Both the position numbers and the translations under genes were made by a program. The notes below the pieces were generated by a model. It was not told the origin of the DNA and made no database searches. It saw only the letters and a list, made by a program, of their open reading frames with translations. This document shows, in pieces, positions 51,374 through 64,000 of a stretch of DNA of 64,000 nt (the first letter of the stretch is position 1; every line of letters starts with the position of its first letter). This stretch comes from Crocosphaera sp. (GTDB taxonomy: Bacteria; Cyanobacteriota; Cyanobacteriia; Cyanobacteriales; Microcystaceae): the NCBI RefSeq assembly GCF_030064895.1, contig NZ_JASJEB010000005.1, positions 1 to 64,000 of the forward strand, given 5' to 3'.

Positions 51374-52054
51374 TCAAATCAACTCGCTATCTATCCATCG
51401 ATAACCAATACCTCTAACGGTTGCAATTATATTTTTACCCAATTTTTTGCGTAAATAACCAATATAAACATCCACAATATTAGAACCAGGATCATAACTA
51501 TAACCCCAAACATGATCGAGTAATTGTTGACGTGTCATAACTTGTCCCTTATGAGAAATAAAAATTTCCAGTAGCATAAATTCGGTATTAGACAACTCAA
51601 TTAATTGATGATCAAGATACACTTGACGACTCCGCAGATCAAGAACAATATTTCCTGATTGTAACTTCATGGGGACAGGGGTAAAGTTATTAAGATTATT
51701 GCGTAAACGTAAACGTATTCTTGCTAATAATTCTTCAAAACGAAAAGGTTTAGTTACATAGTCATCTGCACCTCCTTCTAACCCTGCAACCTTATCTTTT
51801 ATATCATCTCTTGCTGTCAGAATAATAATAGATAAATTCATACCTTGACCCCGTAATTCTTCTAAAATAGTCAAGCCATCTTTTGAAGGTAGTCCTAAGT
51901 CTAATAACATTAGATCAAATTGTTCACTAAACGCCATGTCTAAGATAGTTTTTGGATGAGAAGCAACCTCAACAGTAAATCCATTTGCTTCTAAACCTTT
52001 TTTTACAAAAGCAGCGATTCTAGGTTCATCTTCAGCCAGTAAAATTCGATTCAT
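51374..52054 (-). CDS. OmpR-family response regulator
   Basis: A 226-aa DNA-binding response regulator. Receiver about 1-120: ILLAEDEPRIAAFVKKGLEA, LLLDLGLPSKDG (phospho-Asp about 51), IIILTARDD and VTKPFRFEELL. The winged helix is about 125-222: LQSGNIVLDLRSRQVYLDHQ, LSNTEFMLLEIFI, TRQQLLDHVWGYSYDPGSNI and VDVYIGYLRKKLG. It is encoded after its kinase (40-bp gap), whereas most such pairs have the regulator first. Related to RppA/NrsR-like metal or redox regulators, but the signal is unknown. Confidence 0.92.
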   Translation of the reverse strand: MNRILLAEDEPRIAAFVKKGLEANGFTVEVASHPKTILDMAFSEQFDLMLLDLGLPSKDGLTILEELRGQGMNLSIIILTARDDIKDKVAGLEGGADDYVTKPFRFEELLARIRLRLRNNLNNFTPVPMKLQSGNIVLDLRSRQVYLDHQLIELSNTEFMLLEIFISHKGQVMTRQQLLDHVWGYSYDPGSNIVDVYIGYLRKKLGKNIIATVRGIGYRWIDSELI

Positions 52055-52093
52055 CAGTTTTTATTTCCTTATATATTCTAGATTTGATGGTTT

Positions 52094-53566
52094 TTAATAG
52101 TCGATGTCAGGTCTATCATTTGTGGGTAAAAAAATAGTAAATTTAGAACCTTGATCAACTTGACTAACACATTCTATTGAACCTTGATGCGCTTCTACAA
52201 TGGCTTTTACAATTGATAAACCTAATCCAGATCCTTCCATTTTATCCTCAGAATTTCCTTGAAAAAATCGTTCAAAAAGATATTCTTTATCTTCATCTTC
52301 TATGCCATTTCCATTATCTTTGATCCAAATTTGAATATCATTTCTATCTTGATGAGAACCAATAATAATGGTTCCATTTTCTTTTGTATGTTGTACGGCA
52401 TTTTGAGCTAAATTCATTAAAGCTTGAGTCAGTCTTTGACGATCGCCAATAATTTTTGCAGTTGCCTTATTTTCTAATAACCATTGACGAGATCCTAACC
52501 CCATAGCCTTATGATAAATTTCTTCAGTAAAAGCGGGTATATTTATAACTTCTTTTTGGAGAAAATCAGGTCTTTCTGACTTCGCTAACAATACTAAATC
52601 ATTAACTAAACGATTCATTCTCTCAATTTCATCTAATACTAATGTGATGGTTTCTTCTTGTTCTTGGGGATCATCTCCCATTAATTCTAAATGTCCTTGA
52701 ATAATGGTGATTGGGGTTCTTAATTCATGACAAATATCATTCAAGAAATGACGTTGACTTTCAAACGCATTCTCTAAACGATTAAGCATTTTATTAAAGG
52801 TATTAATAAGATCATAAATTTCTCCCGAACCCTCTAGAGCAAGACGCTGGTTTAAGTCAAATTGTCCAATTTCATTAGCAACTTTTGTTAAAGATTTTAG
52901 GGGTTTTAAAATTCTTCCAGAAGCTACCCACGCTAAAATAATAGCAAAGATTAATCCTACAAATAAAACCTGGATAAATATCAGTAAAATCTCAAACGCT
53001 TCTTCTCGTTCTCCAACATTATAATGAACTGCGATAAAAACCCCTGCAATTTTGTCATTAATAATAATTGGTTTCAGTGAATATTGAAAATAATCTAAAT
53101 ATGAATTGAGTTGTTTCGGTTGTGTTATTGATAGGTTATTAAACTCTGTCCAAGTTTTCATTAAGGCTGATTCTTTTTGAATTTCTTTCGGTAAAAAACC
53201 AGGGACAGAACGATAGAAGCGATTATTAACAATTGTAATCAAGTAATTATCATCTTCAGGATTAGATTGAGATAAAAATTTATCTAAAATGGTTTCCAAT
53301 TGAGTTGAATTAGGATCATTTTGTAAGTCATTGGAATGTTCTACTAAAAATTCCTCAAAATTTTCGACTTCTTTTTTTAAGTCTTCTTTGACCCTGATAT
53401 TAACTTGATGAAAAACCAGTTGATAGACAATCGGAATTGCAATTCCCGTAAATATCAACATTAAACTAGCATACCAAAGCAAAATTTGAGAACGTGCTTG
53501 CCATAACACACTTTTAGACAAGGTTTTTTGTAGACTCAGTAAGTTAGTTAACAAGCTGATGATCAT
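52094..53566 (-). CDS. membrane sensor histidine kinase
   Basis: A 490-aa histidine kinase. TM1 about 30-53 (LLWYASLMLIFTGIAIPIVY), an extracytoplasmic sensor of about 140 aa, TM2 about 190-213 (LLIFIQVLFVGLIFAIILAW), HAMP (SGRILKPLKSLTKVANEIG), the HisKA box DICHELRTPITIIQGH, N box LAQNAVQHT, DNGNGIEDED and GSGLGLSIVKAIV. The class is like CusS/RppB/ManS sensors in layout; the stimulus cannot be called. First gene of the operon kinase-OmpR regulator-receiver. Confidence 0.92.
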   Translation of the reverse strand: MIISLLTNLLSLQKTLSKSVLWQARSQILLWYASLMLIFTGIAIPIVYQLVFHQVNIRVKEDLKKEVENFEEFLVEHSNDLQNDPNSTQLETILDKFLSQSNPEDDNYLITIVNNRFYRSVPGFLPKEIQKESALMKTWTEFNNLSITQPKQLNSYLDYFQYSLKPIIINDKIAGVFIAVHYNVGEREEAFEILLIFIQVLFVGLIFAIILAWVASGRILKPLKSLTKVANEIGQFDLNQRLALEGSGEIYDLINTFNKMLNRLENAFESQRHFLNDICHELRTPITIIQGHLELMGDDPQEQEETITLVLDEIERMNRLVNDLVLLAKSERPDFLQKEVINIPAFTEEIYHKAMGLGSRQWLLENKATAKIIGDRQRLTQALMNLAQNAVQHTKENGTIIIGSHQDRNDIQIWIKDNGNGIEDEDKEYLFERFFQGNSEDKMEGSGLGLSIVKAIVEAHQGSIECVSQVDQGSKFTIFLPTNDRPDIDY

Positions 53567-54478
53567 TTATAATTACATCCTACAACAGTTTCTTGATGGG
53601 CTTAATTGTATTGATGTTTTTTAAGGATGTCAATCCCATTATTAGTAGAAATAAGTAGAAATAAGTGGTATAAACCTAGTCCATCTTTAAACCTGGAGTT
53701 TTGAGATAGGATCAGGTATGATGCTCTCAAAGTCAAATTAAGTAAAACTTATTAAATTGTCAGAAAATTCTTGGTCAAAAGTGGCATAAATTTTTGAGTA
53801 ACCTTTTCAGCAAAACCTAATTATTATTATTTTTTAATTATTAATTAACCATAGCAACAACAGCAACCAGATTGCTAGTCCCTTAGAGTTTTCCACGCCT
53901 TCCTTGAGATTGCCTAGAGTTGCGCTGAATAATCAATTTCAGACATCTTGCTCCCTTGGTTCTACTTGAGGAAATATAAGCCTCTAGCTTGGTTGCTGTT
54001 ATTGAGAGTTAACGAGACAGACATAAACTTATACAGGGTATTCTCCTTTGAACTTGTTGTTTTACCTTGCTAGTTATCTGCCAGGGAAGCTTTGTTTATT
54101 AGCTTCATCTTCAATCTAACATCTTACTTTGACATCTCCTAGTTTTCGCAATCAAACTTTACATTACAGGGATCAAGAAAATATTGGTTGTTTTTTAGGT
54201 ATTTATCTTTAATTAGTAGATCATAGCTTATAAATTTTTCGATAATGTTGCTTCTACTTGAACATCAAATACTGTAAGTGAACTACCCCAACTATATATT
54301 AGAACTCTTGCAAAAATATTTTATGCTATGATTAAAGGCTATTTGTTTGATAATTTAACAAATTAATTAGCCAAATCGTAGTTGTAAAGTCCGGCTATTA
54401 AGTTTGCTCTTAATCCAAATATAATGTAACCCTCGATTGAACTAAGCTTAAAGTCCAGGTATATTGGAGAGCGAGTAA
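53567..54478. other. 912-bp leader region before the TIR operon
   Basis: No protein gene is supported. It contains the AACAACAGCAA repeat (53847-53879) shared with 46771. AACAGCAACCA (53859-53869) is exactly complementary to TGGTTGCTGTT (53990-54000), so the 142-nt segment between could fold as a closed RNA domain. Either a transposon-related remnant or a structured RNA is possible. The last 150 bp are AT-rich and promoter-like, ending in GGAGA 8 nt before the GTG start of the TIR gene. Confidence 0.45.
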
Positions 54479-56104
54479 GTGCCAACTGCTACCGTATTAA
54501 CTATCCTAAAACCGACACCCATGACCTCATCTAATCCAGACTTATCGCCCGCACCACTCAATATATTTATTTCTTACTCTCATCGTGATGAGAAACTACG
54601 GGAAACTCTAGGACTTCATCTTTCGTCATTGCAACGGCAGGGAGTGGTTAAATCCTGGCATGATCGAAAAATTAGCGCGGGTATGGAGTGGGCACACGCA
54701 ATTGATGAAAATCTCAATTCAGCCAAGATTATTCTGCTGTTGATTAGTGAAAACTTTATCGCCTCTGACTATTGTTATGATATTGAAATGAAACGGGCGA
54801 TCATACGCCATGAGGAGGGGGAAGCGCGGGTGATTCCGATTATTTTGAAGCCAGTAGATTGGAGTGGTACTCCCTTCGGCAGGCTCCAAGCATTACCTAA
54901 AGATGCGAAGCCTGTGACGACTTGGAGCAATCGGGGTGAGGCATTTTTAAATATTACTGAGGGGATTAAAAAAGTGGCTAGGGAAATAGCGATGATTATG
55001 CCAAAAAAACAGCCTGCTGTTATCAATCAACCTTCAGCAATTCCCAATGCTGTGGAGTTGACTAAAATAAACGGCCAAAAACAGCTTAATATTCGTGAAA
55101 CGGATATTTCTGTAGTGGAAAGTTATGGTAACTTTTACATTGTCAGATCTCGACTGGAAAAGCGTTGTTATGAAGAAGTATTAAAGCCTGGGATGCTGAT
55201 TCGCATCAAGTCTCCCGACAAGATGGGAAAATCTTTTATGATGAGTCGGGTTTTAGATTCTGTCATTCAGAACGGATATCGCACAGCCATTATTGATTTA
55301 CGAGAAGTGAACCAACAAATTCTTTTAAATATCAATCAATTCTTGCAGTGGTTTTGTGCTTATGTAAGTGACCAATTAAATATCGATCAAAGTCCTGAAG
55401 AGAATTGGAAAAAGTTTCTGGGAGCTAACCCTAATTGCACAAAATATTTCGAGAAGTATCTCCTTTCTAATACGGATGAGCCACTGGTGATTGCGATCGA
55501 TAATTTTGATTGTATTTTCGATCACCCTAATATTGAGACTGATTTTTGCGGCTTGTTGCGTGGCTGGTTTGAAAAAGTGAATACCAATAAGGTGTGGGCA
55601 AAGTTACGCCAGATTATTGTTTATTCGCAAGAATCCTATGGAACTAAAGATATTAACCAATCCCCTTTAAATGTTGGCTTTTCAATTGAACTTGACGAAC
55701 TAGATTCATTACAAGTATTAGCTTTAGCTAATGCCTATGGACTATCGTGGACTGAGGTAGAAACGGAAAAACTTATGGATATGATCGGGGGACATCCCTA
55801 TCTAGTCCAAATGGCCCTCGACCGGATTGCACACCAAGATATCGCTCTTGACGAGTTATTAAAAATTGCCCCTACTGAAGAAGGAATTTATGGGAAATAT
55901 CTGAACGAACGGCTGCAGCGTTTGGAAGAAAATCCTGATCTCGCAGAGGCAATGAAGCAAGGAGTAAATTCCGATTTTCCCGTTAGCTTGGGAGGCAAGG
56001 AAACGTTTAAACTCGATAGCATGGGATTGATTAAACGACAGGGTAATGATATCGTACCGCGATGTAATTTATACCGCTTTTATTTTAGAGACAGATTGAG
56101 GTAA
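54479..56104 (+). CDS. TIR-STAND protein (TIR domain plus AAA-like ATPase)
   Basis: 541 aa. TIR domain about 28-165: [60 protein letters not shown] followed by the catalytic-position Glu (E103), then PIILKPVDW. The second part (about 215-530) is an AAA-like domain of the AAA_35 type found in cyanobacterial STAND proteins: [14 protein letters not shown], Walker A-like [15 protein letters not shown] (K251), Walker B-like [14 protein letters not shown], and [19 protein letters not shown] domains of bacterial defence proteins cleave NAD+ or make signalling nucleotides. The start is GTG with GGAGA 8 nt before; ATG at 54521 is an alternative. The next gene starts 4 bp downstream, so the two are an operon. 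Confidence 0.85.
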
Positions 56105-56108
56105 TAAT

Positions 56109-59100
56109 ATGGCTCTTGAATCATCTGTCGATGGGTTAGCGGTGGGGACTTCTTTCTATCACCTCAAGGGGGGAAGTTTGCCTGCTGATGCGCCAAGCTA
56201 CGTAGAACGGCAGGCTGATAGAGAGCTATATAAGCGTCTCAAAACAGGGGAATGCTGTTATATATTTAACTCGCGGCAGATGGGTAAATCTAGCTTGCGA
56301 GTCCACGTAATTCAGGAGCTACAGCAGGATGGGGTTTTTTGTGTCACTATCGATCCACAAACGATTGGTACGCAAATAGAGCAATCCCAGTGGTATGGCA
56401 GTATTATCTATAGCCTTGTGCAAAGTTTTGGTTTAGAAGATCGCTTCGATTTAGAAACTTGGTTGGAAGAACGAGAACGAGTTAAACTTTCACCTGTGCG
56501 CTGCTTAAATGATTTTATTTCTCAGGTTTTATTAACAGAAATTTCTCAGCCTATTGTCATCTTTGTCGAAGAAATTGATAGGCTGCGAAGCCTTAATTTT
56601 GAAGTTGATGATTTTTTCCTACTAATTCGTTCCTTCTATGAAAATCGCGCCCACGATTCAAAATTCAAGCGGCTATCTTTCGCCTTGATTGGCGTTACTA
56701 CACCAAGAGATCTGATTAGCGCACACAATCATTCTGTCTTTAATATTGGCGTGGCGATCGAGATGAGCGGTTTTCGCTTAGAAGAGGTAAAAGATTTACA
56801 CATTGGCTTAGTCGGAAAAGTTAACAAGCCCCAATTTGTTTTGGCTGAAGTTCTGAAATGGACAGGCGGACAACCTTTTTTAACGCAAAAATTGCTCGGT
56901 TTAGTGCTTCAAGCAGCAGAAGCAAAGAATCCAGATTTATCTGAAGCAGATATTGCAGCAGGGATCGAACAAATTGTTCAAAACGGTATTATTAATAATT
57001 GGGAAGATCAGGATGTACCGGAGCACCTCAAAACCTTACAAGATCGTGTATTTCACAGCGACGAACGGCTGCGGGGACGGTTGCTGGGGATGTACCAACA
57101 GATTTTAGCTAGTGGCAGCATTGAGGCTGATGAGAGTTACGAGCAACTGCAATTGCGGCTGACGGGTTTGGTGGTGCAGAGAGAAGGCAAGCTACAGGTT
57201 TACAATCCGATTTATGCAGCAGTCTTTAACCAGCAGTGGGTAGTTCGCGCCTTGGCAGATTTGCGCCCTCGTTTTTATGCGGAGGCGTTTCGGGCTTGGC
57301 AGGAGGCGCAAGAGAAGCAGAAAGAGTCGTTTTTGTTGCGGGGGCAAGCACTTGAGGATGCGGCAGCTTGGGCTAAGGGAAAGCGGCTGAGTACAGAAGA
57401 TGATCATTTTTTGGATGCTAGTCAGGAACTAGAAAAACAGGACATTCAAAAAAAGTTAGCAGCGGAAGCACAAGCCAATGAGATTTTGACAGCGGCACGA
57501 AAACAGGCAGAAGCGGAATTGGAAAAGAAGAATCAGAAATTGGCAGAAATCCAGGAGGCACAACAACAGGCAGAAGAGGAATTGGAAAGGATGAATCAGG
57601 CATTAGTGAAAAACAAAGCGGAATCCGCCAAAATTATCAAAAAAGCGAATCGGCGCAATAGGTTTAGTTTGTTAGGAGCCGTAGGAGCCATTGCGATTGC
57701 CTCTGTTGCTGTACCAATTTCCCTCATGGCAGTAAACCGTCTCAAAATAGTGCAGCAGAATCTCACAACAGCCCAAGAGGAAACAGCACGGTTAGAGAAG
57801 GACAAATCACAACTCGTTAAGGATAAGAGCGAACTAGAGATCAGTTTTCAAAAAACGCTGGAAAAGGAAAAAAATGCCAAAGCAAAGGCAAAAGAAGCTC
57901 ATAACAGAGCCAGGGAAGCCAATCAAAAATTTAATGAAGCCCAGGCAAAATTGACAACAGCCAATCAAAAAGTGCAACAAGCAGAAGCTGATTTAAAAAT
58001 TTCTCAAGAAAACTTGAGAGATACAAGACAAGATAGACAAAAAGCTCTTAAACAGTTAAACTTAGCCAAAGAAAATTTAGACAAAGCCAAATATGAGCAA
58101 ACCCAGGTAGAAAATCGGTTAAAGTTAGCTCAAGATGGATTAAAACAGGCTTTAGTCGCCCAAAGACAAGCCCAAGAAGTAACGAAACTAGAAAGAGATG
58201 TGTTGACTTCAGTGCAACAGTTTGAAGCTGGCAAAGAAATAAGTGCTTTACTGTTAGCCATGAATACTGGACAAAAATTGAATACATTAGTGCAAGAGAA
58301 TACTTCTTTGAGAGATTATCCGACAGTTAGTCCTATCTCAGCCCTCCAGATGATCCTTAACAGGATTTACCAACAAAATCAATTTATGATTGAAAGTGAT
58401 ATCAAACAACTTAATCAAGTAATTTTCAGTCCAGACGCAAAGCAACTGGCTACGGCAGGAGATGACGGCATAATCCGCCTTTTTGATTTGTTCGGAAAGC
58501 CATTGTATACATCAGAGAAACGTCCAACTGGAATCAATAGTCTCAGTTTTAGTCTTGATGGAAAGTATATTGCTAGTGGTGACAAGAATGGTCAACTGTG
58601 CCTCTGGGAATTGTCTCAAGACAAATTAGTCCTGAGAGAATGTCAAGAAGCGCATCAAGGTTGGATCAATAGTGTTAATTTTAATCAAGAATATCTGGCT
58701 ACAGGAGGCAAAGATGGAATCGTTCGCCTCTGGAATTTGAAGAGCGAGAAAATTCGAGAATGGTCAACCAATCAAAGTGAAGTTGAGACTGTCCATTTTA
58801 GTCCAGATGGCAAGCATATTGCTACTGGAGGAAATGACGGCAAAATAAGCTTCTGGAAATTATCAGGAGAGAAAATTCGAGAATGGAAAGGACATGAAGG
58901 TCGAGTTAGAAGTATTGATATTACCGTTCAAGAAGGCCAACAATATTTGGTTAGTGTCGGCAATGATGGCATGATTCGTCTTTGGAACTTATCAGAAGAG
59001 AAGATTCCTGATAATGAATGGCGAGCACATAAAAGTCAGATTAAGAGCGTCAGTTTTAGTCCTGACGGCAAAATTCTAGCGACTGTAGGACAAGATGGCA

Positions 59101-60260
59101 TCCTAAAGTTATGGGATCGTTTAGGACGACAGTTAGCTCAATTAAAGGCAGACATGACAGGCAGCAATAGTGTTAGCTTCAATCCCACTCCAGAAGCGCA
59201 ACGCCTAGCCTCAGTTGGAAATGATGGTACAATCCGTCTCTGGAATCTATCAAGGGAACTGATTGTTGAATTTAAATCTGGTGACTTAGACGAAATCAGT
59301 AGTGTCAGGTTTGATTCAGAAGGAAGGTATATAGTTACAAAGGAAAAGAATGGCACAATCCGTCTAGGCAACTTATCTAATTATCAGTTGCAACCTTTTG
59401 TCGAGCAACAAAGTAGAGCAGCATTTCGTTCCCAAAAACAAGGTTTAGTAACTTTTGGGACAGATGGACAAGTTCGGTTATGGGATTTATCTCGAAACTT
59501 AACCAGTGCACCAATAGCTCATCGTGATGCGATGAGTCTAAATTTCACTCCCAACGGAGAATATCTAATAATTCTTACATTAAATAATCTATTTCAAGTT
59601 TGGGACTTAGAAGAGAAAACATTAATTACAGAATTGCCAGGATACCCACCTCAAGATATTGCCAGTATCGATTCCGATTCGGAAGGACTTACAATAGCAG
59701 TAGCAAGAAAAGATGGAAACATTGAAATTCTAAGTCTTTCAGGTCAAAAATTAGCTCAGTGGGATAGCCATCAAGGAGAAATTACCAGCATCAGTTTTGA
59801 TTCTAAGGGAGAACGCTTGGCGACGGCGGGAAAAGATGGGAGCATCCGACTTTGGAGTCGTTCTGGTCAGGAATTAGGCCAATTAGAAGGCCATCAGGGT
59901 CAAGTTAACAGCCTTAGTTTTAGTCCAAATGGACAGCGACTGGCAACGGCCGGAGAAGATGGCAGGGTCAGACTTTGGGTGGTGCCGTCAGGTCAGCAAC
60001 TCGCTCAACTTGATGTTTTACAAGGTTTTGATAATGCTGAAATTGAAAGTGTCAATTTTAGTCCTAATGGAAAGCTGCTAGCAGTTGCCTTTAATGTCCA
60101 AGAAAAAGCCCTACCACCTGAAGGGAAAGTATTAGTGTGGCATACTGAGGAATTGAGGGATTTATTAGCCCGTGGCTGTCACTGGCTCTCATACTACTTA
60201 GTCCGCTATCCTGATAGTCAAAACCTCTGTCCGAAGGAAGCTCAACTTAAAGGTTGGTAA
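56109..60260 (+). CDS. AAA-like/coiled-coil/TM/WD40 STAND protein
   Basis: 1383 aa. AAA_35-type domain about 15-390: [20 protein letters not shown], Walker [15 protein letters not shown] (K60), the [20 protein letters not shown] segment, Walker B-like [30 protein letters not shown]. Then charged coiled coil (about 430-515), one TM helix (about 518-540, [19 protein letters not shown]), a second long coiled coil (about 545-695), and from about 765 onward about 14 WD40 repeats, enough for two seven-bladed propellers ([20 protein letters not shown]; several end in RLWNL). The last ~30 aa are non-WD. Blades 8, 10 and 11 are degenerate. It starts 4 bp after the TIR gene; GAGG serves as the binding site. 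It would act as a membrane-tethered sensor switch. Confidence 0.88.
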
Positions 60261-60342
60261 TAATTCAAACCCTATATCCTGGTTTATTGTAGATTTTAAT
60301 CTTTCGTCAAAATTTAAATTGAAAACAAAGGAGTTAGTAAAA

Positions 60343-62856
60343 ATGGCAATTTTTTGGAGAAAACTACTTATACCTAATCAAAAATATACCTGGTCTTTAC
60401 TCTTAGGAATTATGGTTTTCCTCACCTCAGCGGATACATACCGCCAAGGGATTTCCCAAGATATTCCTAATCCAGAAGAAGCCTCTCAGAAGGCAGAAAA
60501 ATTTAGTCCCGAACAGCTAACCTCTGTCGAAATTGATGAAAAACTACGAGATCGTTTACGCTTTGATCCGAGATGGCAGCCAATCTTACTGGCTGTCCGA
60601 GACGATATCGATACTCTTAAATGGACTAAGACAAAAGTAGACAATCTAAAAAATCCTATCTGGAAGCGTTACGGCGCAAAAGTCTATCCCCTATTAGACT
60701 ACTACACTCGCTTTGGAGATCCCCTACGTCAAAAGTATGGTCTTGCTGGCATTCGTAGTTTAGGTAAACCTTATACTACTCTCTGGCTGAGTAAGCAGTT
60801 ACAACTCAACCGAATTATTTTAGCCGGAAGTTATCAAACGTGGAACTTTTCTGAAAAAGAATTGGCTTTTCTTGACTTTTTTCCAAGTAAAGAACTCTTA
60901 GAAAAGGAGTTTGGGCTAAATGAGCCAAAGATACGCCAGAAACTGATCAAAATAGCCAAAGAAAATTTGCAGCCTAAAACATATATTTACTACTATGAGC
61001 AGCTAAATCATAATTTTCTTATTGAATTTTTAGGATATAATTACAACCAAACATCGGCTGATTCATCATTTGATCCTAATTCTGAACCGGCCCTAAAAAA
61101 ATGGGATCAATATGAAAGACTAACAGCTTTGGGTAACAACCAAATTCAAGAGATACTGAGTTATTACCGGAACTTGTCAAAGAACAGTCAGGAAGCTCTT
61201 CTAGCTTCCCGTTTGGGAGAGATTAAAGCCGGCGAAATTCATCAAGCGGGTAAAACTTTATTGCAAAATCTTGCCAATGACCAGACTTCCCCCTATCGAC
61301 TTTGGTCTATTGCTGAGTTAGATAGGCATGGCGACCCTCAAGGTTCGGCACTTCTTGAAAAAATCCTTAATGGAGAGCTTAAGGAACTTTATAGTTTGAC
61401 TACCTTCGCCGGACATAGTTTTTTCATCCCTACAGAATTTCGCCCTCGTTTTGCTAACGATTTACCTGGCGCTCATGCCTATCTTTTATTGGTAGCAATG
61501 GCTCATAAATATCCTCAATCGAAGTTCATCAAAGGCTGCCGTGAATATGGAGATTTAACAGGATCATCCTACTTTGGTGGAGAGCCTCGCAGTAAGGAAA
61601 TCCAGAAGCGTAACGCTTCCAAAACCCCCGCCGAAAAAGTTCAAGGTTGGCAACAATGGCTTAGTCTCTATGGAGATCATCCAGGTGCTGATGATGCAAC
61701 CTACCATCTTGCTAAAAGCTTACAGGAACAAAATGATAGCTTAGGAGCAATGCGCCAATGGCTGAAATTGATGACGCAACACCCTGGAGATTGGGATGTG
61801 TCTGACTATGCTTGGCCTTATGTACGAACTCTTTTGGATGTTGGATTGTCTATCGAACAGCTTGAAATTATTCTCGAAGAAAACCGTAATAAAGCTATTA
61901 CTCCTCTACTTAAATATGCTTTAGCAGTTCGACAGGCACGGCTACACAACTACGCTCAGGCTTTACAGCTGTCTAATGGATTGGATTTAACAAAAATGTC
62001 TACCGAAGTTTTGGGAAGCTATTACGAACCTGCTCGCCAATACTACCTCAGAGGTGATTTAGCTCAACTTCAGACACAAATGCAGGCCATGTTGACAGAA
62101 CAACGCCAACGGTGGCAACGATTACGTAATTGGCAACAAGAAAATACACCAGAATCTCGCTATCGTATAGCCTCCAATTGGTCTAATTTCGGAGGTTGGA
62201 AGAATGGGTATCTTCCCTTCTGGGGTCAAAACCGCATTAACCACCTGCCGATCTTAGACTACGGTTGGTGTAGTGAATATTGGGCTTGCGATTTGTATCA
62301 ACGAGACGGGGATACAGTGAGATCTTTATACCAAAACGCTAGTCAAAACGCAGTAGCACTGTCTTTCTATGAAAAGATTCTTGCCGATCCTCAAACACAA
62401 CCTAAAATACGGGAAAAAACCCTTTACATGATTGCTTCTACTTTACTAACGCAGTGGGAGTGGCATCCCCCAGAAGAAACTCTAGCTATTCATCCTCTAC
62501 CCGGGGTTTCAGGTGAGCCATCGGCTCAAAAAATTTGGCAAGCTGTTAACCTTCGTGAAGTTCAAAAACAAGCTTATCAAAGCGATCCACCAGATTACGA
62601 CTTGCTCCGCAAAGCCACAAAACAATGGGAGGAAGCTCAAGCACAAGCTCTCAAAGCCATCCCCCTAGACTATCAAGAGCGGATCGACCAAATCATTGCT
62701 CAACTAAAAAAGGAGTTTCCTCAAAGTTCCTACATTGATGACCTGCTATTTTCCAGTTACTTTCTGAGTCGAAAGCCTAGTTATCTTCAGGAAATTGTTA
62801 AAGAATATCCTAACGGAGATCGTGCTACCGATGCAGCTAAATTTTTGAAACAATAG
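60343..62856 (+). CDS. membrane-anchored helical-repeat protein, third gene of the TIR operon
   Basis: About 837 aa. One N-terminal hydrophobic segment (about 15-38, WSLLLGIMVFLTSADTYRQG) acts as an anchor or signal. The remainder is alpha-helical with TPR-like pairs in the second half: DDATYHLAKSLQEQNDSLGA, MRQWLKLMTQHPGDWDVSDY, AVRQARLHNYAQAL, SFYEKILADPQTQ, and PQSSYIDDLLFSSYFLSRKP at the end. The early part (RLRFDPRWQPILLAVRDDID, FGDPLRQKYGLAG) is unfamiliar. The start is the ATG at 60343 with GGAG 9 nt upstream; a TTG at 60319 also keeps frame. It lies 82 bp after the WD40 gene on the same strand. I infer a partner or substrate-binding component; no enzyme motif seen. Confidence 0.7.
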   Translation: MAIFWRKLLIPNQKYTWSLLLGIMVFLTSADTYRQGISQDIPNPEEASQKAEKFSPEQLTSVEIDEKLRDRLRFDPRWQPILLAVRDDIDTLKWTKTKVDNLKNPIWKRYGAKVYPLLDYYTRFGDPLRQKYGLAGIRSLGKPYTTLWLSKQLQLNRIILAGSYQTWNFSEKELAFLDFFPSKELLEKEFGLNEPKIRQKLIKIAKENLQPKTYIYYYEQLNHNFLIEFLGYNYNQTSADSSFDPNSEPALKKWDQYERLTALGNNQIQEILSYYRNLSKNSQEALLASRLGEIKAGEIHQAGKTLLQNLANDQTSPYRLWSIAELDRHGDPQGSALLEKILNGELKELYSLTTFAGHSFFIPTEFRPRFANDLPGAHAYLLLVAMAHKYPQSKFIKGCREYGDLTGSSYFGGEPRSKEIQKRNASKTPAEKVQGWQQWLSLYGDHPGADDATYHLAKSLQEQNDSLGAMRQWLKLMTQHPGDWDVSDYAWPYVRTLLDVGLSIEQLEIILEENRNKAITPLLKYALAVRQARLHNYAQALQLSNGLDLTKMSTEVLGSYYEPARQYYLRGDLAQLQTQMQAMLTEQRQRWQRLRNWQQENTPESRYRIASNWSNFGGWKNGYLPFWGQNRINHLPILDYGWCSEYWACDLYQRDGDTVRSLYQNASQNAVALSFYEKILADPQTQPKIREKTLYMIASTLLTQWEWHPPEETLAIHPLPGVSGEPSAQKIWQAVNLREVQKQAYQSDPPDYDLLRKATKQWEEAQAQALKAIPLDYQERIDQIIAQLKKEFPQSSYIDDLLFSSYFLSRKPSYLQEIVKEYPNGDRATDAAKFLKQ

Positions 62857-62947
62857 ATTTGAGAACCGGATTTAGTATTATTAGTTCACTGTTTACAGTT
62901 TTGGTAAAAATTACTATAATTGAATTGGAAGACTAAAAATACTACCC

Positions 62948-64000
62948 ATGTTAACTTTCAATCCCAGTTTAACCCCATCACTCCAAGAGAGTAGCTTACT
63001 GACAGACTTGTATCAGTTAACTATGGCTGCTTGTTATGCAGGGGAAGGTATTGCCGAAAAAAAAGCCAGTTTTGAGCTATTTGTGCGCAGTTTACCCGAT
63101 AATTTTGGCTATCTGATCGCAATGGGACTGGCCCAAGGTTTACAGTATCTAGAAAATTTACGTTTTACAGCAGAACAGATCGATTATTTGCAAAGTACAG
63201 GCATTTTTGACCATGTAACCCCTGAGTTTTGGTCATTGTTGCAAAACCAAGGTTTTACGGGAGATGTTTGGGCTGTTCCCGAGGGAACCGCTATCTTTGC
63301 CAATGAACCGTTATTGCGAGTTGAGGCTCCTTTATGGCAAGGGCAAATAGTCGAAACCTACCTTTTAAATACCCTGAACTATCAAACTTTAATCGCCACC
63401 AGAGCAGCGAGAATGCGCGATATAGCAGGAGAAAAGGCAATTTTGTTGGAATTTGGCACAAGACGTGCTTTTAGCCCTCAAGGGGCAATTTGGGCGGCTA
63501 GGGCAGCTTTAGCAGCCGGTTTTGATGCAACTTCTAATGTTTTGGCCGCCAAGGAACTGAAGCAGCAACCCAGTGGTACTATGGCCCACGCTTTGGTGAT
63601 GGCTATTAAAGGCTTATCTGGCAGCGAAGATGAGGCGTTTATGGCTTTTAATCGTCACTTTCCAGGTGCAACTTTATTAATCGATACCTATGATACCGTA
63701 ACTGCAGCGCAACGGTTAGCTGAAAATAGGGAAATAGAGGTTAAAGGGGTTCGTTTGGACTCTGGAGACTTGGGAACCTTGTCCCAAAAAGTGCGATCGC
63801 TACTACCAAAGGTGAATATTTTTGCCAGTGGGGATATTGATGAATGGGAGTTGCAACGGTTGCGAGCAGAAAACGCTAGTATTGATGGGTATGGGGTGGG
63901 AACTCGTTTGGTGACGGGACAACCGGTTAATGGGGTCTATAAATTAGTAGAAATAGACAACATTCCCACCATGAAACAATCTAGCCATAAAATGACTTAT
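62948..64000 (+). CDS. pncB: nicotinate phosphoribosyltransferase, 3' end beyond the window
   Basis: 351 codons are visible with no stop, so the gene continues past 64000. It makes nicotinate mononucleotide from nicotinate and PRPP in NAD salvage. Family features: LLTDLYQLTMAACY at the N-terminus, SFELFVRSLPDNFGYLIAMG, LLEFGTRRAFSPQGAIWAAR (catalytic region), MAHALVMAIKGLSGSEDEAF, TLLIDTYDT, VKGVRLDSGDLG and GVGTRLVTGQP. The start ATG at 62948 fits the family N-terminus. It follows the TIR-STAND operon on the same strand after 91 bp. A HIP1 site is present at 63797, after a 13-kb gap without one. Confidence 0.95.
   Translation, partial: MLTFNPSLTPSLQESSLLTDLYQLTMAACYAGEGIAEKKASFELFVRSLPDNFGYLIAMGLAQGLQYLENLRFTAEQIDYLQSTGIFDHVTPEFWSLLQNQGFTGDVWAVPEGTAIFANEPLLRVEAPLWQGQIVETYLLNTLNYQTLIATRAARMRDIAGEKAILLEFGTRRAFSPQGAIWAARAALAAGFDATSNVLAAKELKQQPSGTMAHALVMAIKGLSGSEDEAFMAFNRHFPGATLLIDTYDTVTAAQRLAENREIEVKGVRLDSGDLGTLSQKVRSLLPKVNIFASGDIDEWELQRLRAENASIDGYGVGTRLVTGQPVNGVYKLVEIDNIPTMKQSSHKMTY

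Follow-up and report, generated by a model that had tools for sequence, protein, structure and literature searches.

A putative two-gene receptor of paired AAA_35 ATPases with TIR and WD40 domains in a Crocosphaera genome

Results

Genes of the locus

Close to the right end of the analyzed window, the whole stretch of 64,000 nucleotides at the start of contig NZ_JASJEB010000005.1 of Crocosphaera sp. (assembly GCF_030064895.1; genome of 5.5 Mb in 188 contigs), two adjacent genes encode ATPases of the Pfam family AAA_35 and are the subject of this analysis. Gene A (54479-56104, plus strand, GTG start) is an open frame for a protein of 541 amino acids (aa) composed of a TIR domain and an A-type AAA_35 ATPase. 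Gene B (56109-60260, plus strand) codes for 1383 aa with a B-type AAA_35 ATPase, a transmembrane (TM) segment and a WD40 region. Both are followed by gene C (60319-62856, plus strand, 845 aa), which has no Pfam family and is a probable passenger. A previous reading of this DNA, made from the sequence only (hereafter the sequence-only reading), had described three genes on the same strand, and indeed A, B and C are open, co-directional frames. The gap of 4 bp given there between A and B was confirmed; that of 82 bp between B and C holds only with the ATG at 60343 as the start of C, and counted from the first possible start, the TTG at 60319, it is 58 bp. Neither between A and B nor between B and C did a scan reveal a terminator-like site on the plus strand.

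The AAA_35 proteins A and B

In protein A, a TIR_2 match (residues 29-136, E 2.1e-15; TIR domain at about 26-168) is followed by an AAA_35 match (213-537, E 9.2e-120) comprising an NTPase and a winged helix, so that the proposed fusion of a TIR domain to an AAA_35-type ATPase is backed by Pfam for both parts. The Walker A residues G250 and K251 are invariant in family alignments. Residue E103, which the sequence-only reading had singled out, is intact within a conserved S..C...E segment; it is the Glu of 'SDYCYDIEM' and its counterpart in the alignment is the 'SDWCWDE' Glu of the Cat1 TIR (structure 9mud), which we take to be catalytic in Cat1. Over residues 28-181 the TIR part also matches the PADLOC model of ThsB (PDLC00420, E 1.6e-58), and the ATPase of A is matched by no family in PADLOC 2023. 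A Pfam NACHT domain was present neither in A, which has AAA_35 and TIR only, nor in C, nor among the best 25 of the 56 families matched by B.

The predicted structure of A has a mean predicted local distance difference test score (pLDDT) of 77.6. Its TIR part superimposes on the plant TIR 7xoz (RPPT-TIR; Z 14.8, root-mean-square deviation (rmsd) 2.9, 132 residues). A catalytic pocket that does not form in a model had been named beforehand as an argument against the idea; at the fold level, the match to 7xoz and the placement of E103 speak against this objection. The ATPase model matches CED-4 (Z 17.4, rmsd 3.9, 286 residues), and the whole model matches the plant TIR-containing nucleotide-binding leucine-rich repeat receptor (NLR) RPP1 over two domains (Z 18.6, 419 residues) with an rmsd of 14.8, from which it follows that the arrangement of the domains differs between A and RPP1. 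The best-ranked structure was the archaeal ATPase PaBY2304 (Z 20.3, rmsd 3.8, 295 residues).

Protein B carries its AAA_35 match, again with NTPase and winged helix, at about residues 21-374 (E 4.6e-33), with G59 and K60 of Walker A invariant in family alignments. Two long helices are predicted at 429-516 and 524-599, the helical or coiled-coil part reaching at least residue 599, and the single strong hydrophobic segment (524-542) lies at the start of the second one. The WD40 region extends over about 755-1350. Thus, a second AAA_35 ATPase with coiled coil, TM helix and WD40 repeats was correctly recognized in the sequence-only reading; the about 14 blades stated there are plausible, as the length of the region fits, yet unproven, since only nine WD40 stretches passed the E-value limit in Pfam. 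The model of residues 1-600 (mean pLDDT 82.9) was best matched by PaBY2304 (Z 16.9, rmsd 5.6, 308 residues), furthermore by RPP1 (Z 15.1, rmsd 5.3, 295 residues), CED-4 (Z 14.9, rmsd 5.6, 298 residues) and Avs4 (8dgf, Foldseek E 4.9e-6). As far as the models go, both ATPases have cores resembling those of NLRs and CED-4, and likewise those of origin recognition complex (ORC) proteins.

Linkage and coevolution of A and B

The AAA_35 matches fall into two subfamilies, an A-type scoring 324-521 bits and a B-type scoring 86-132 bits. A figure for their adjacency was obtained from 12 other genomes of the class, each at least 98% complete and evenly drawn, of which seven carry A-type genes. In this sample 15 of 20 A-type genes were followed on the same strand by a B-type gene, and of the 21 B-type genes 15 were paired in this way with an upstream A-type gene, the gaps between the open frames being at most 109 bp in 11 pairs and 658-1512 bp in four. 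As only a handful of genes of each class occurs among thousands of genes, the probability of chance adjacency would be near zero. Seventy-eight named cyanobacterial loci with an A gene gave a similar picture: B followed on the same strand in 58, a proportion biased upward because the loci were ranked by likeness to a query alignment containing paired loci. A and B were separated by at most 300 bp in 38 of the 78 loci and overlapped by 1 or 4 bp in 11; B was located upstream in one, and in six the contig end was reached. On the same strand, B lies upstream in loci L105 and L154. Part of the locus choice favored long A proteins and another part short ones, and the filler stretch L140 was dropped. 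By far the most frequent neighbor family was B (54 loci), followed by a gene of 208 aa (11 loci). In two loci the partners are naturally fused in one frame, namely in L118 (4318-7032) in the order B, cyclase, A and in L123 (4712-7066) in the order B, A. Rare adjacency of the homologues, which the sequence-only reading had regarded as decisive against it, therefore does not apply to A and B; it does apply to C.

Across the genome collection, at least 563 relatives were confirmed. The named loci with kinship to gene A belong to cyanobacteria, and A-B pairs were present on all three plasmid records inspected of the 80 with a match. A plasmid of Nostoc sp. TCL26-01 harbors two pairs in tandem beside a NACHT gene, and on a plasmid of Nostoc sp. 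HK-01 the pair is located near restriction genes. Since a plasmid of Abditibacteriota (L278, 5968-10354) contains a TIR-AAA_35/AAA_35-PAS-GAF pair with xerC genes on both sides, the pair is not limited to cyanobacteria. Judged from gene order, the two-gene layout recurs in cyanobacteria and the pairing of A with B is evident. The Crocosphaera genome itself has 15 AAA_35 matches. Among them are a second pair on contig C144 (L011, 6252-10156), in which a TIR-AAA_35 gene overlaps an AAA_35-GUN4 gene, and a fusion of a response regulator, a PAS domain and a B-type AAA_35 (L018, 8216-10411). In another genome (G073), a TIR-AAA_35 gene whose TIR is by eye of the same type as that of the window is followed after 658 bp by a WD40-bearing B-type gene (L258, 3472-8199); this genome also carries a homologue of gene C, on another contig than the pair.

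For 68 of 72 pairs (four failed length or alignment limits), the distances between the A ATPases were compared with those between the B ATPases, yielding a Mantel r of 0.736; after permutation the value was 0.004 +/- 0.081 with a maximum of 0.303 in 2000 permutations. As a control for species history, the B partners were reshuffled within five genomes (13,824 arrangements). The true pairing gave 0.520 compared to a mean of 0.336 and was reached by a fraction of 1.4e-4 of the arrangements, which corresponds to two, counting the true one. By this measure of sequence distance, cognate A and B ATPases coevolve, also within genomes.

Exchangeable domains and membrane topology

Among 79 A proteins, a set ranked by likeness to A of the window, Pfam detected on the output side TIR_2 (43), CHAT (19), Pkinase (14), Guanylate_cyc (7), Trypsin_2 (4), Sigma70_r4_2 (4), GerE (2) and Peptidase_C14 (1), the counts overlapping where one protein holds two domains. 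A Fisher value of 1.9e-8 calculated on the named loci ignores relatedness and assumes that the CHAT and C14 members do not overlap. A gene for an HSDR_N-type nuclease was found in 11 of the 78 loci, in ten of them between A and B, and in all 11 the A protein contains, by eye, a CHAT-like or caspase-like domain; two of the nucleases were identified by Pfam, the others by blastp. Their positions are exemplified by L210 (9050-9679), L212 (9201-9827) and L216 (9078-9704), to which eight further loci are to be added.

The nearest ATPase relatives among the named loci (68% for A, 63% for B) both belong to L179 of Pseudanabaena sp. ULC068bin1, where A begins, by eye, with a CHAT-like domain in the place of the TIR domain. 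The nearest TIR domain (68%) is that of L178 of Synechococcus sp. Tobar12-5m-g. According to these comparisons, the ATPase pair is the constant core and the output is swapped between loci; the TIR domain as output is locus-specific, since in relatives this ATPase is joined to a CHAT, kinase or cyclase domain. L017 (9269-9718) encodes, next to a TPR protein, a free-standing TIR protein of 149 aa that shares 62% identity with the TIR domain of A.

On the side of B, WD40 repeats form the C-terminus of 20 of 45 proteins in an alignment of 44 of 50 partners plus that of the window (six short ones were left out). Ten B proteins were scanned singly; four revealed no second family and six did, namely CHASE2, Peripla_BP_6, PG_binding_1, VgrG3-like_C, GAF and CHAT. 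A hydrophobic segment after residue 360 was detected in 56 of 72 B proteins, a set that includes some truncated by contig ends, and is mostly located at 450-540 with a few outside this range. Lysine and arginine are more frequent in the 15 residues before than in the 15 residues after the segment in 44 proteins, less frequent in five and equal in seven (p 6.6e-8). Because of this excess, the ATPase is predicted to reside inside and the C-terminus outside, a topology derived from hydropathy and charge bias that agrees with the CHASE2 and peptidoglycan-binding types of B.

Gene C, the insertion site and the NAD operon

Besides lacking a Pfam family, gene C matches no PADLOC family, and its match to TIGR02795/YbgF is weak (21.6 bits, cut-off 90.1). 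The comparison with solved structures yielded nothing useful (best E 0.45). The TM anchor assigned to C in the sequence-only reading was not confirmed, as the best hydropathy over 19 residues is only 1.07 and a signal peptide is equally likely. In a search at E 1e-20, C was absent from 58 relatives, its sole match among 59 genomes being its own. Homologues occur in 46 of 388 genomes of the class, its own included, and 26 of them in one genus. None of the 20 C neighborhoods inspected contained A, B or NAD (nicotinamide adenine dinucleotide) genes (E 1e-6), nor did C occur in any of the 78 named A loci. The three-part layout is thus not conserved, and C was rejected as a third component on the grounds of these neighborhoods. 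From its genomic distribution, C is probably a passenger on the same insertion as A and B.

This insertion spans approximately 54212-62895 (no strand; about 8.7 kb) and can be deduced from its flanks (up to about 54198-54211 and from about 62886-62895), which are near neighbors in other genomes of the genus. In six congeners the same flanks are merely 21 bp (G008), 50-284 bp (four genomes) or 867 bp (G005) apart. In G007 and G001 the right flank alone was alignable, and some of the sequences compared cover no more than 1.6-3.6 kb ahead of pncB. The G+C content of the insertion is 38-46%, that of the flanks 28-34% except for pncB (44.5%). Apart from A, B and C, the insertion contains a single frame of at least 80 aa, which is antisense and 83 aa long. 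A target-site duplication was not established at the insertion, and a mobile-element signature was rejected as well, the repeat search of 52000-63000 having yielded the WD40 and coiled-coil repeats and otherwise only short, chance-like matches. At the same site upstream of pncB, G005 has two short genes that by eye look like a toxin-antitoxin pair (L176, 13269-13945). Insertions may thus have a hot spot here.

The insertion is immediately followed by a complete pncB-nadD-nrtR-nadE operon (62948-64000 in the window; L021, 12949-17308). In view of the TIR domain, a functional tie to this operon was considered and rejected as a conserved link: pncB is present in all nine genomes of the genus and, in the stretches compared from the eight others, stands without A-B-C beside it (the operon is whole in seven and interrupted in G001), and pncB, nadD or nadE occurred in none of the 78 named A loci. 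Transcriptional read-through from the insertion into the operon is possible. At the right edge of the insertion, a short promoter-like element (TTTACA-17-TATAAT, 62892-62920, plus strand) belongs to a block upstream of pncB that is conserved in all nine genus genomes aligned; the evidence is this conservation, as the whole promoter scan performed no better than chance. The element belongs to the pncB-nadD-nrtR-nadE operon and not to the A-B system. On the other side of the insertion, a noncoding block (53845-54207) is conserved in seven genomes with 87% mean column identity and an invariant core of about 60 nucleotides. No Rfam match at the gathering score was obtained in the window, a match to a human long noncoding RNA family being discounted (26 bits versus a gathering score of 80). 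RNAalifold proposed long hairpins on both strands of the block, with one and two compensated pairs, and for this reason it is a mere candidate for a structured RNA.

Discussion

The idea of a switch made of two ATPases, a membrane-bound WD40 protein and a TIR protein, had already been put forward in the sequence-only reading. Comparative data now strongly support it for A and B and do not support C as a member. It is strengthened by the adjacency of the genes, the pair-specific coevolution, the fusions and the distribution of the exchangeable domains, A bearing the outputs and B the sensor-type domains. We favor, at a probability of roughly 55%, the interpretation that A and B form one split, paired receptor resembling NLRs and other signal transduction ATPases with numerous domains (STAND), with B as the sensing and the TIR domain of A as the executing part, and with a probable role in conflict. 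B would hold its AAA_35 ATPase in the cytoplasm and cross the membrane with one TM helix, and its WD40 propellers, probably on the outer side, would bind or monitor a partner or a trigger. A would be the executor, a soluble AAA_35 nucleotide switch bearing the TIR enzyme. Once triggered, B might engage its cognate A via the ATPase modules, whereupon A would oligomerize and the clustered TIR domains would turn active on NAD+, either by depletion or by producing a signal of the cyclic ADP-ribose type. The outcome would probably be a conflict or cell-death response. All of these steps, from the signaling of B to A to the NADase output and the role in defense, are inferred; a contact between A and B is suggested only by the fusions in L118 and L123. 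The context is of the conflict type inasmuch as it comprises the accessory insertion, the carriage on plasmids and the HSDR_N-type nuclease beside a CHAT-like or caspase-like A, and for the TIR copy conflict is somewhat more likely than general signaling.

Several observations weigh against this interpretation. Regarding linkage, five of the 20 A-type genes in the even sample are unlinked, 13 of the 78 named loci lack B although at least 2.5 kb downstream were in view, and four of the six A-type genes of the own genome have no linked B, two of these genes lying near a contig end. Shared ancestry can inflate a Mantel correlation, the nearest neighbors of A and B agree in only 35 of 68 pairs, and in the within-genome comparison the actual partner fitted best in 11 of the 15 rows and not in all. 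At the structural level, Aeropyrum ORC2 matches the models of A (Z 17.7) and B (Z 15.2) less than one Z unit away from the NLRs, so that STAND and ORC/Cdc6 ATPases are not separable by fold alone, and the TIR blocks of the A model have a moderate pLDDT of 49-83. The topology is challenged by GUN4 (L011) and CHAT (L183), which lie behind a predicted TM segment although a cytoplasmic location is expected of them, and by L119 and L121 (periplasmic-binding types) and L104 (GAF type), in which no segment exceeded the threshold. No copy of A was found in 50,697 phage records (E 1e-5). Moreover, GAF, PAS, CHASE2 and GUN4 domains as well as cyclase, GGDEF-like and HTH-like (helix-turn-helix) outputs resemble ordinary signaling.

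A broader view is advanced only tentatively. The paired AAA_35 proteins could represent a distinct class of transmembrane signaling in cyanobacteria and on at least one Abditibacteriota plasmid, a kind of 'two-component' system without phosphotransfer that would be the bacterial counterpart of paired NLRs and serve mainly in conflict. B would then turn signals at the envelope into a state of its ATPase; the cognate A would read this state and fire one of many plug-in outputs (TIR, CHAT, caspase, trypsin, kinase, cyclase or GGDEF). It is also possible, though less likely than the split receptor used in conflict, that the pair is a chassis for non-immune signaling, by which an envelope signal or a redox or tetrapyrrole signal is transmitted to any output, the TIR copy being a regulator or a death switch in abiotic stress. 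The CHASE2, Peripla_BP_6, PG_binding, GAF and GUN4 domains on B fit such a function, as do the kinase, adenylate/guanylate cyclase and (by eye) GGDEF-like outputs and the many copies per genome. On the other hand, TIR, CHAT, trypsin and caspase domains dominate the outputs in the set of 79 A proteins, bearing in mind its ranking by likeness to A of the window, and the nuclease accompanying CHAT-like A proteins, the plasmid carriage and the lack of A-B-C at this site in congeners likewise speak against it.

The close match of the TIR domain to the ThsB model could mean that A is a Thoeris-like protein whose fusion to an ATPase is incidental and which signals to a ThsA-like effector elsewhere in the genome. 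This is unlikely. The same ATPase carries several outputs besides TIR, and in the four proteins covered by PADLOC (A, B, C and the beginning of pncB) no ThsA was detected. A search of the own genome for STALD was empty, with the positive control giving no match either. Even less probable is a three-gene defense operon with C as a working third part; the common strand, the short gaps and the shared insertion of the three genes speak for it, the occurrence of C homologues in 46 of 388 genomes of the class and the absence of A and B from the 20 C neighborhoods inspected, and of C from the 78 named A loci, against it. A mere tandem duplication of AAA_35 genes without joint function, suggested by the common Pfam family and the several copies per genome, is hardly credible as the two subfamilies are clearly apart in their bit scores, A usually precedes B (B downstream in 58 named loci and upstream in one) save for L105, L154 and the fusions, and the distances of the partners are not independent, the partners coevolving and fusing.

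For the split receptor preferred here, the plant paired NLR is the closest analogy to work with. In plant NLR pairs, labor is divided between a sensor and an executor, and the sensor part of plant NLRs consists of leucine-rich repeats. As described in the available parts of the literature, such pairs, for example CHS3-CSA1, are genetically linked receptors (PMC11298796, PMC9528088). The A-B pair shares with them two linked, coevolving STAND-type receptors and the TIR domain among the outputs, and the best multi-domain structural match of A is the TIR-NLR RPP1. It differs in that B is predicted to span the membrane and carries WD40 instead of leucine-rich repeats, that the genes are arranged in tandem and often overlap instead of lying head to head, and that the outputs of the A family include protease, kinase and cyclase types. 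The relationship exists at the fold level only.

Bacterial STAND/NLR receptors have mostly been described as single proteins, and this is reportedly also true of the Rst TIR-NLR, which is said to be a single gene. The latter combines TIR with an NLR-like ATPase and was proposed to act in defense (PMC9122126, as far as accessible); A, by comparison, has a partner ATPase with TM segment and WD40 repeats. In Avs and bacterial NACHT proteins, the effector, the NTPase and the sensor usually reside in one polypeptide, according to the accessible text of PMC10907252. The logic of effector, STAND ATPase and sensor is the same in A-B, yet the output and the sensor-type domain are distributed between two ATPases, of which one has a TM segment, and the ATPase is AAA_35. 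The VMAP ternary, EACC1 and TRADD-N conflict systems (Kaur et al. 2020, 2021; PMC7159879, PMC8195603) also combine, in the portions available, a constant core with rapidly varying effectors (TIR, kinase, caspase, GUN4, CHASE2) and are frequent in cyanobacteria. Their cores, unlike that of A-B, consist of vWA/MoxR/VMAP, caspase or adaptor domains. AAA_35 is not mentioned in the main text of either paper, and no vWA or MoxR was listed by Pfam in eight proteins of the window (A, the best 25 of 56 families of B, C, the start of pncB and four upstream genes). Protease-nuclease pairs have been described in antiviral systems, in which the nuclease paired with trypsin is, in the part of the source available, of the MBL-fold hydrolase superfamily and linked to Avs, Lamassu, Hachiman and DRT (PMC12799240). 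They resemble the 11 loci with an HSDR_N-type nuclease beside a CHAT-like or caspase-like A and differ from the locus of the window, which has neither a protease nor a nuclease part.

Cyanobacterial WD40 genes were reported to often neighbor or contain kinases and to neighbor caspase genes, and one CHASE2-sensor cluster was noted (PMC5587647). This survey covered seven cyanobacterial species on the basis of annotation words; in its accessible text, 'AAA' and 'TIR' do not appear and no ATPase pair is described. Part of the neighborhood signal it recorded may stem from the A-B module. As a published domain name, AAA_35 was met, in partially available sources, for an accessory domain that is rarely present in sigma factors of cyanobacteria, and judged by titles the name is scarcely used in the literature searched. 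A description of an AAA_35 pair was not found in that literature, most subscription journals lying outside its coverage. A-B is placed with the STAND-type systems and set apart from Avs, bNACHT, Thoeris and VMAP.

If the interpretation of A and B as a split receptor is true, the paired-receptor principle of plant immunity would also exist in bacteria, here with a transmembrane sensor. The natural domain swaps would then provide a ready set for working out how signals are transmitted within pairs, and a role would be assigned to hundreds of proteins so far annotated as 'AAA-like domain-containing', at least 563 relatives having been confirmed.

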